Source: Cryptosporangium arvum DSM 44712 (lineage in GTDB: Bacteria > Actinomycetota > Actinomycetes > Mycobacteriales > Cryptosporangiaceae). From it: 64,000 bases of DNA. The stretch covers positions 4,805,251 to 4,869,250 of the forward strand of contig NZ_KK073874.1 in NCBI RefSeq assembly GCF_000585375.1, read 5' to 3'. The notes beneath the pieces are model-generated. The model saw only the letters and a program-made list of their open reading frames with translations, did no database searches and was not told the origin of the DNA. Below, in pieces: positions 6,668-8,884 of the stretch. Position 1 is the first letter of the stretch. Each line of letters begins with the position of its first letter. The position numbers were made by a program, and so were the translations under genes.

Positions 6668-7636
6668 TCAATACGCCATCCCCATGGCGGTGCGCACCTC
6701 CGCCAGCGTGGCCTCGGCCACCGCACCGGCCCGCTGCGCCCCGGCCCGCAGGATCTCGCGCACGAAACCCCGGTCGGCCGCATAGGACGCGCGGCGGGCC
6801 CGGATCGGCGCGAAGTAGTCGTTGACCGCGTCGATCACGACGTTCTTCAACGCCGCGGCGCCGCCCGGCCCGACGTCGGCCGCCACCGCGTCCGGGTCGC
6901 GGTCGAGGCACAACGCGGCCAGCAGCACCAGGCTCGACACCTCCGGCCGGGTGTCCGGCCGGTAGGTGATGTGCCGGTCGGCGTCGGTCTTCGTGCCGCG
7001 GATCAGCCGCGCGGTCTCGTCCGCGCTCGCGCCGATCGCGATCGCGTTGCCCCGGCTCTTGCTCATCTTCGTCCCGTCGGTGCCCAGCAGCAGCGGCGCC
7101 GCCGAGAGCAGCGCCTCCGGCACCGGGAACACCGGCGCGTACCGGTCGTTGAACCGGCGCGCGATCGTGCGGGTCAGCTCCAGGTGCGGCAACTGGTCCT
7201 GCCCGACCGGAACCAGCGTCGACTTGCCGAACAGGATGTCGGCGGCCTGGTGCGCGGGGTAGGTGAACATCAACCCGTTCACCGCCCGCCGCGACTGGGC
7301 GATCTCGTCCTTGACGGTGGGGTTGCGTTCCAGCTCGGACACCGAGATCAGGCTCAGGAACGGCAGCAGCAGCTGGTTGAGCGCCGGCAGCGCGCTGTGG
7401 GCGACGATCGTCGTCGACGGGTCGATACCGGCCGCCAGGTAGTCCAGCACCAGCCCGTCGACGTGCCCGGGCAGGTCACGGGCGGCGTCGCGGTCGGTGA
7501 GCACCTGATAGTCGGCGATCAGCACGGTCAGCTCGGCGCCGCCGCGTTGCAGGAGCACACGGTTGTGCAGCGTGCCGAAGTAGTGCCCGAGGTGCAGCGC
7601 CCCGGTCGGCCGGTCACCGCTCATCACACGGTCCAC
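6668..7636 (-). CDS. trpS: tryptophanyl-tRNA synthetase
   Basis: This 322-residue class I synthetase charges tRNA-Trp. It begins VDRVMSGDRPTGALHLGHYF, where GALHLGHY is the HIGH-type motif, and it carries KMSKS in GTKMSKSRGN. The GTG start is chosen because it precedes the family-conserved SGxRPTG and is spaced about 9 bp from AGAGGA. Upstream lie a 12-codon peptide with two tandem Trp codons and a strong terminator hairpin. This is the arrangement known for the auxiliary, indolmycin-resistant TrpRS of Streptomyces. Expression is therefore expected to rise when charged tRNA-Trp is scarce. Confidence 0.95.
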   Translation of the reverse strand: MDRVMSGDRPTGALHLGHYFGTLHNRVLLQRGGAELTVLIADYQVLTDRDAARDLPGHVDGLVLDYLAAGIDPSTTIVAHSALPALNQLLLPFLSLISVSELERNPTVKDEIAQSRRAVNGLMFTYPAHQAADILFGKSTLVPVGQDQLPHLELTRTIARRFNDRYAPVFPVPEALLSAAPLLLGTDGTKMSKSRGNAIAIGASADETARLIRGTKTDADRHITYRPDTRPEVSSLVLLAALCLDRDPDAVAADVGPGGAAALKNVVIDAVNDYFAPIRARRASYAADRGFVREILRAGAQRAGAVAEATLAEVRTAMGMAY

Positions 7637-7643
7637 GGGAAAG

Positions 7644-7665
7644 GGTCCTCTCGGAGAAGAGGACC
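7644..7665 (-). promoter_or_regulatory. hairpin covering the trpS ribosome-binding site
   Basis: An 8-bp perfect stem (7644-7651 with 7658-7665, 6-nt loop) forms in the trpS leader RNA. Its 3' arm contains the AGAGGA that would pair with 16S rRNA 9 nt before the GTG start. The stem would therefore hide the ribosome-binding site. This could add a translational layer to the attenuator upstream. Function is inferred. Confidence 0.5.
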
Positions 7666-7679
7666 GTCCGATGGACAGC

Positions 7680-7712
7680 AAACAGGGCCGTTCGCACCGA
7701 ACGGCCCTGTTT
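7680..7712 (-). terminator. trpS attenuator terminator hairpin
   Basis: A perfect 15-bp inverted repeat (7680-7694 and 7698-7712) with a 3-nt loop begins 29 nt after the leader peptide stop. Its 3' end reads CCTGTTT in the RNA sense. An alternative pairing is visible: GCACGAA upstream (7718-7724) can pair with TTCGGTGC (7694-7701) and would break the terminator. This is the classical terminator/antiterminator switch of ribosome-mediated attenuation. Confidence 0.8.
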
Positions 7713-7741
7713 GTTGATTCGTGCGTGACGAGGCGCCGCTC

Positions 7742-7780
7742 CTATCCGGAGCGCCACCAGCTCAGACGCGCACTACGCAT
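7742..7780 (-). CDS. Trp leader peptide of trpS attenuator (12 aa)
   Basis: The tiny frame ATG to TAG encodes MRSARLSWWRSG, with two consecutive TGG codons at positions 8 and 9. It starts 3 nt after the stop of the epoxide hydrolase gene and lies just upstream of a terminator hairpin and trpS. Stalling at the Trp codons would cover the first RNA segment and favour the antiterminator. There is no clear Shine-Dalgarno sequence, and TACGCT seven nt before the ATG could be a -10 box, so a nearly leaderless transcript is possible. Confidence 0.82.
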   Translation of the reverse strand: MRSARLSWWRSG

Positions 7781-7783
7781 GTC

Positions 7784-8884
7784 TCACAGCGTAGCGAAGA
7801 ACGCGCGGATGTCCGCCACCAATAACTCCGGCACCTCGAGCGCGGCGAAGTGCCCGCCGGTGTCGAAATCGGTCCAGTGGGTGATCGTGTTGACCTGCTC
7901 GGCGAACCGGCGGATCGCCATGTCCTCGGCGAACACCGCCACCCCCGTCGGCACCGGGGACCTCCCGGCCGGCCGCAGGCCCGCGGTGTGCAGCACCTCG
8001 TAGTACAGGTTCGCCGACGAGGCGGCGGTGCCGGTCACCCAGTACACCATCACGTTGGTGAGCAGCCGGTCGCGGCCGACGGGGATGCCCTCGCCGTGCG
8101 TCCACTCGTAGAACTTCTCCACGATCCACGCGAGCTGCCCGACCGGGGAGTCGTGCAGCCCGAAGGCGAGCGTCTGCGGTTTCGTGGCCTGCTGTTTGAA
8201 GTAGCCGTTGCCTTCGCGCCGGTAGTGCCGCGACAACGCCAGCCGCTGCTTCTCCACCGCCGTGAACGTGTCGTCGGGCTCGACGCGCCCGGGCGCCATG
8301 AACCCGCCGGTGGCCGCGTTGACGTGCACCCCGACGACGTTGCCGGGGTGCCGGCGGCCCATCGCCGGGGTGATCACCGCCCCGAAGTCGCCGCCCTGCA
8401 CGCCGTAGCGTTCGTAACCCAGGCGCCCCATGAGCTCGGCGAACGCGTCGGCGATCCGCTCGATGCCCCAGCCGGGCTCCGACAGCGGCCCGGAGAACCC
8501 GAACCCCGGTAACGACGGGATCACCAGGTGGAAGTCCTCGCGGAGCGGTCCGATGACGTCGAGGAACTCCACCACCGACCCGGGCCAGCCGTGCACCAGC
8601 AGCAGCGGCAGCGCGTCGGCCCGCGGCGAGCGCACGTGCAGGAAATGCAGGCGCTGCCCGTCGACGTCGGTCGTGTACTGCGGATGGGCGTTGAGCTCGG
8701 CTTCGGCGGCCCGCCAGTCGTAGCCGCGGGCCCAGTAGCCGGCCAGGTCACGCAGATAGTCGACGGGGACGCCCCGCTGCCAGCCGGGGCCGGGCAGCGA
8801 CGGGGTCCAGCGGGTGCGGGCCAGGCGGTCGGCGAGGTCGTCGAGGTCGGTTCGGGGAACGTCGATCCGGAACTCCGCGATCAT
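7784..8884 (-). CDS. epoxide hydrolase with N-terminal EHN domain
   Basis: This 366-residue protein has the N-terminal epoxide hydrolase domain, including [10 protein letters not shown] and [16 protein letters not shown]. An alpha/beta hydrolase core follows. The oxyanion motif is HGWPGS near residue 99, the nucleophile Asp is about 166 in GVQGGDFGA, and the terminal His is in TGGHFAALE. It opens epoxides to diols. Its ATG overlaps the stop of the upstream FAD monooxygenase (ATGA), so a monooxygenase-epoxide hydrolase relay is plausible though the substrate is unknown. Confidence 0.93.

Follow-up and report, generated by a model that had tools for sequence, protein, structure and literature searches.

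A predicted ribosome-mediated attenuator sensing charged tRNA-Trp upstream of the auxiliary trpS gene of Cryptosporangium arvum

The auxiliary, indolmycin-resistant TrpRS of Streptomyces coelicolor, trpRS1, is reportedly under ribosome-mediated transcriptional attenuation, as described by Vecchione and Sello in 2010 (J Bacteriol 192:3565). Hence, this mode of control of an auxiliary trpS is already known in Streptomyces trpRS1. The trpRS1-type leader of S. lividans, MMTRTCTQLWRAA, contains one Trp codon, and a −10 box placed directly before leaderless leader frames has been reported for leaders of this species (PMC8079986). Candidate attenuators were also predicted by Seliverstov et al. in 2005 before S. 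avermitilis trpS2 and before the trp operons of Streptomyces and Corynebacterium; the part of that paper drawn on here describes double or triple UGG codons, a GC-rich terminator and three complementary segments of the type gGCC-rGCy-GGCC (PMC1262725). The auxiliary TrpRS of S. griseus, SGR_3809, is indolmycin-resistant (review PMC6804068). Finally, the Rfam family RF00513 (Trp_leader) combines a Trp-rich peptide with 1:2, 2:3 and 3:4 pairings.

We analysed a stretch of 64,000 nucleotides of the C. arvum genome (the window), in which all features discussed below lie on the minus strand. We suggest that expression of the auxiliary trpS gene of the window is governed by ribosome-mediated transcription attenuation in response to charged tRNA-Trp, and we assign this reading a probability of roughly 0.9. 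Sequence, conservation and modelling establish the elements, their competing pairings, the fit to the ribosome and the auxiliary status of the gene; that transcription really terminates or reads through, that it responds to charging and that the gene contributes to inhibitor tolerance is inferred. The features found are those of the attenuator class: a leader ORF with cognate codons, mutually exclusive terminator and antiterminator helices with a strand in common, a 1:2 hairpin that contains the codons, and a fitting ribosome geometry. The GC-rich stem is present as well; most relatives have a good U run after it, a few have none, and that of the window is weak.

The locus resembles the described systems to different degrees. 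It shares with S. coelicolor trpRS1 the placing of an auxiliary trpS under ribosome-mediated transcriptional attenuation, and the match to that system drawn in the preliminary description holds for the mechanism and need not reflect orthology. The S. coelicolor/S. lividans leader MMTRTCTQLWRAA resembles the leaders of loci L100 and L101, where the TrpRS is of a different lineage and shares about 33% identity with the window enzyme. A back-translated pattern of the S. lividans leader had no match in the genus of genome G126 (393 genomes), and S. coelicolor trpRS1 was therefore not directly located. With S. griseus the genome shares the presence of two trpS genes. SGR_3809 is probably of the window enzyme's type, because its close relatives S. 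globisporus (L036) and S. parvus (L034) carry, besides exactly one primary copy, a single copy of the TrpRS-II type that is preceded by a WWRSS leader. The strands in the window are of the GGGCC type and thus similar to the segments of Seliverstov et al., whose candidates, in the part of the paper used, differ in being predictions from few genomes (PMC1262725). The outer covarying helix, the leaderless start and the fixed silent codons described below were found here and do not appear in that part of the paper (PMC1262725). The window element follows the logic of RF00513 but differs from it in sequence and in the gene controlled, and its score with this family is 14.1 bits (cut-off 41).

The gene that follows the leader is trpS, as had been proposed: it is the next gene, extends over 7636–6668 with a GTG start at 7636, and its product, an auxiliary TrpRS-II-like tryptophanyl-tRNA synthetase, scores above the cut-off for TIGR00233. 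The closest solved structure is that of TrpRS II of D. radiodurans (best PDB match 2a4m/1yi8). The search for a second trpS in the genome yielded one, so that there are exactly two, the primary copy being 34% identical to the auxiliary one. The auxiliary gene is missing from one of three congeners examined, and that species keeps the primary copy only. Trp leaders were also sought 5' of the primary trpS and of trpE of the window genome, and none was found there. Q9 and H43 of bacterial TrpRS are residues of the inhibitor pocket (PMC12093056). Compared with the Geobacillus enzyme (sequence identical to 1i6k), the auxiliary TrpRS has R in place of Q9 and Q in place of H43, whereas the primary TrpRS retains Q and H. 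This is suggestive of an auxiliary enzyme tolerant to indolmycin or chuangxinmycin, though pocket residues by themselves are not proof of it.

The 12-codon leader peptide with two adjacent TGG codons, on which the preliminary description was built, is indeed present. Its ORF, MRSARLSWWRSG, runs from the ATG at 7780 to the TAG at 7742 and reads ATG CGT AGT GCG CGT CTG AGC TGG TGG CGC TCC GGA TAG; it is recognized by its sequence and by the WWRSx*/WWPS* leaders of relatives. The adjacent Trp codons at 7759–7754 are the predicted sensing codons and double as the 5' half of strand 1 of the RNA. A −10-like box, TACGCT (consensus TANNNT), is located at 7793–7788, 7 nt 5' of the leader ATG, and is assigned from its sequence and from the spacing in homologues. 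It falls within the last codons of an upstream epoxide hydrolase gene on the same strand, whose stop codon (7786–7784) lies 3 nt ahead of the leader ATG. Since the start codon sits 6–7 nt past the −10 box, the leader transcript is probably leaderless and would start at or next to the leader AUG. In the 64-kb window the trpS leader is the sole short ORF with adjacent Trp codons that is followed by a stem of at least 10 bp, and 40 Markov-resampled windows contained 57 such short ORFs, 0 of them with a stem of at least 12 bp.

The RNA 3' of the start codon can be described by four strands. Strand 1 (UGGUGGCGCUCC, 7759–7748) consists of UGGUGG and the two fixed codons that follow and is the partner of strand 2 when free of the ribosome, as judged from the complement and from the fixed silent sites in relatives. 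Strand 2 (GGAGCGGC, 7742–7735) overlaps the stop codon with GGAGCGGCC and may pair with either strand 1 or strand 3. Strands 3 and 4 are the arms of the terminator: the 5' arm CAAACAGGGCCGUUCG at 7713–7698, with the core GGGCCGUUC at 7707–7699 and strand 2 as alternative partner, and the 3' arm CGAACGGCCCUGUUUG at 7694–7679, followed by CUGUCC. The hairpin of 7713–7679 is perfect, as had been claimed, with 16 bp rather than the proposed 15 and a 3-nt loop; the U tract 3' of it (CCCUGUUUGCUG) is weak, and a part of it lies within the stem. The competing pairing expected to break the terminator exists as well, joining strand 2 (7741–7735) to strand 3 (7705–7699) by 7 bp in the window. The 1:2 hairpin, which may serve as a pause or protector hairpin, is enclosed by an outer helix with the 5' arm GUGCG (7773–7769) and the 3' arm CGCAC (7725–7721), seen in the MFE fold and supported by covariation in relatives. 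When the leader RNA is folded (156 nt), it reaches −86.9 kcal/mol against a mean of −58.3 for shuffled sequences (z −7.2), so it is more stable than the shuffles.

An extra hairpin, GGUCCUCU...AGAGGACC (7665–7644), is folded around the likely Shine-Dalgarno sequence of trpS (GAGAGGA, 7650–7644). It is not evident in the sequences of the two congeners L003 and L004, and its function is doubtful.

The relatives examined are 80 named trpS loci of about 70–77% identity from a single scan of named genomes, sampled in Streptomycetaceae, Streptosporangiaceae, Thermomonosporaceae and Pseudonocardiaceae. At 75 of the 80 loci a Trp leader stands at the same place. Of these leaders, 72 have the Trp pair or, at L041, a variant with CGG in place of the first Trp codon (CGG TGG), and 3 are single-Trp WRPS leaders of like design (L011, L012, L074). 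The former 72, counted with L041 and L055, end as WWRSx*, WWPS* or, once, WWRLT*. The leader of L055 (Actinomadura logoneensis), WWPSSDG, has no stop straight after PS and keeps the strand complementarity. No Trp leader was seen at L040, L068, L082, L083 and L084 among the 80, L068 having only 333 nt of upstream sequence. WWRS leaders are also present in both congeners that carry the auxiliary trpS.

The window, 72 relatives and the 2 congeners make up a set of 75 sequences, assembled on the Trp pair; the occurrence of TGG TGG in 74 of its 75 leaders (the exception is L041) is thus to be read with this assembly in mind. In 72 of 74 leaders TANNNT precedes the start codon by 6 or 7 nt, with 3 instances in total at other offsets, and this spacing is characteristic of a −10 box that lies immediately upstream of a leaderless frame. 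The codons after the Trp pair are CGC TCC in 65/65 RS leaders and CCG TCC in 9/9 PS leaders. Because their silent positions are invariant, this points to selection on the RNA at the two codons. Downstream of the terminator stem, the first 8 bases include at least 4 T in 68 of 75 loci, whereas L003, one of the congeners, and some of the more distant groups have no U run. Given the weak or missing U tracts, termination may depend on an additional factor or be of a U-poor type.

Aligned with relatives, both the Trp codons and the alternative hairpins prove to be conserved, as the preliminary description requires, and pairing is kept through compensatory changes. For strand 1, the two codons after the Trp pair have an exact 6-nt complement downstream in 74/74 leaders, which is kept across three kinds of codons, CGCUCC, CCGUCC and CGCCUC. 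Strands 2 and 3 are paired in 98% of cells, with 11 cells changed on both sides versus 2.1 in shuffles, a value above every shuffle; of the two pairs affected, one goes from A-U to G-C (10 sequences) and the other from G-C to A-U (Embleya L071). Strands 3 and 4 are paired in 98.9% of cells, and compensatory changes are present there too. In the outer helix around 1:2, both-sided changes occur in 4 of 6 pairs (26 cells versus 9.7 in shuffles). In relatives the first half of the leader supplies one arm of this helix and the segment 3' of strand 2 the other, and the window has a version of it, GUGCG/CGCAC, shifted in register. The outer helix would also explain the common Cys codon in the leaders. 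On the synthetase tree the RS/PS strand switch takes 2 label changes, and the RS-to-PS change is probably a single evolutionary event and RL another. The compensatory cells are hence not all independent; further changes beyond this switch are those in the outer helix and in L071.

In Streptomyces loci such as L009, L021 and L023 an additional GGGCCGTCC repeat lies 3' of the terminator and is complementary to strand 4. Such a possible fifth strand, defined as a complement to strand 4 of at least 8 nt, occurs in 32% of loci versus 1.6% in shuffles; in the window it is not evident, and it is left out of the scheme given below.

The dependence of the pairings on the ribosome position was modelled by constrained folding, with an assumed ribosome footprint and a transcript that ends after strand 3. 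With the footprint on either Trp codon, the probability of 2:3 is ~1. With no ribosome the 1:2 hairpin forms and the probability of 2:3 is ~0, and a footprint at the stop codon lets neither 1:2 nor 2:3 form (probability of 2:3 ~0). The full ribosome signature is obtained for 71 of 74 leaders, versus 39 of 296 with the strand-2 region shuffled. As soon as the transcript includes strand 4, the terminator is favoured at equilibrium in every state, even with a stalled ribosome, so that antitermination must be kinetic. This reservation weighs most for the window itself, whose terminator is exceptionally strong in the energy model (−28.5 kcal/mol for 3:4 versus −14.5 for 2:3).

We suggest the following course of events. 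Transcription would start at or beside the leader AUG, giving a leaderless message. When Trp-tRNA is plentiful, the ribosome would reach the UAG and mask strand 2, the 3:4 hairpin would form and transcription would stop before trpS. When charged tRNA-Trp is scarce, either in Trp starvation or with indolmycin or chuangxinmycin acting on the primary TrpRS, the ribosome would stall on UGG UGG and cover strand 1. With such a stall the free strand 2 would capture strand 3 ahead of the synthesis of strand 4, and trpS would be transcribed. With no translating ribosome the 1:2 hairpin would form and the terminator would win.

The same elements could be read in other ways. The position of the epoxide hydrolase gene, ending on the same strand 3 nt before the leader ATG, where a terminator would be sensible, could mean that the hairpin is the intrinsic terminator of that gene and the Trp-pair ORF arises by chance. 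Among the fetched loci, however, the hydrolase is upstream in the two congeners only, whereas 75 of the 80 relatives retain the leader and hairpins next to trpS, and such a terminator would leave the Trp codons, the −10 spacing, the fixed silent sites and the 2:3 covariation unexplained. We consider this very improbable, and it was rejected on the synteny of the fetched loci. Still less probable, to a degree that makes it close to negligible, is the control of trpS by a T-box or riboswitch. T-boxes regulate many aminoacyl-tRNA synthetase genes in Firmicutes, according to the part of Seliverstov et al. used here (PMC1262725), but the Rfam search of the leader returned no family above threshold, and its sole Trp-related match was the sub-threshold Trp_leader on this strand.

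The Trp leader might also act mainly through translation, by access to the trpS ribosome-binding site, or through Rho entry, and not through an intrinsic terminator. U tracts that are weak or missing in the window, in L003 and in several other groups speak for this, as do the enclosure of the trpS Shine-Dalgarno sequence by a hairpin in the window and the actinobacterial leader peptides without obvious terminators noted in the consulted part of Seliverstov et al. (PMC1262725). Against it, the GC-rich 3:4 hairpin is highly conserved, the T-rich octet follows it in most of the set, and the hairpin around the Shine-Dalgarno sequence is not seen in the congeners. We hold this explanation to be unlikely, if less so than the other two, and favour the transcription attenuator.

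Searched with the covariance model R1, 297 genomes of the class yielded 20 matches, 19 of which lie ahead of Trp genes. The best nine, including the window's own and L090, precede TrpRS-II-type trpS genes. Weaker matches stand before another TrpRS lineage (L094, L100, L101, L103; 32–34% identical to the window enzyme), before anthranilate-synthase-like chorismate-binding genes (L095–L098, L102) and before trpD (L099); L104 is the exception that does not precede a Trp gene. The weaker matches before Trp genes all have adjacent Trp codons, and nearly all have the TANNNT spacing. Leaders of like design, WWPAS*, are seen in other families before the chorismate-binding/anthranilate genes and trpD just named.

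At L090 (genome G164, 1501–2400) an intact WWRSG leader with its attenuator precedes an auxiliary trpS that is apparently internally deleted: only 187 aa are open, and the TIGR00233 match is limited to positions 142–241. Here the switch seems to have outlived its gene.

Of the more distant TrpRS-II-type loci in the same genomes, 20 were fetched, and most of these have WWLPS, WWWLP or similar leaders. In L115, L116, L119, L130 and L131, leaders of the WWLPS type (mostly VKSLVLVWWLPS) are accompanied by perfect terminator-like stems without a U run, before TrpRS-II-type genes. It is possible, with somewhat less than an even chance in our estimate, that there is a single widespread actinobacterial design, recognized by no Rfam family: a leaderless Trp leader in which the Trp codons, the two fixed codons after them and the stop codon serve at the same time as RNA strands of a fold with several parts. 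Such a design would govern TrpRS-II-type genes, a second, distant TrpRS lineage and anthranilate genes, and the lineages that have no U run may terminate U-independently or by Rho.

Last but not least, the leader is below the size used by gene callers and belongs to no Rfam family at threshold, so it is likely unannotated in most genomes, and the covariance model is usable for annotating it. Beyond this model, the present analysis adds to the known attenuation the breadth of such leaders, their spacing typical of leaderless starts, their invariant silent codon positions and the outer covarying helix. The predicted charging-sensitive attenuator control of a spare, possibly inhibitor-tolerant synthetase would thus reach well beyond Streptomyces trpRS1, and drugs against the primary TrpRS are predicted to induce the spare TrpRS.
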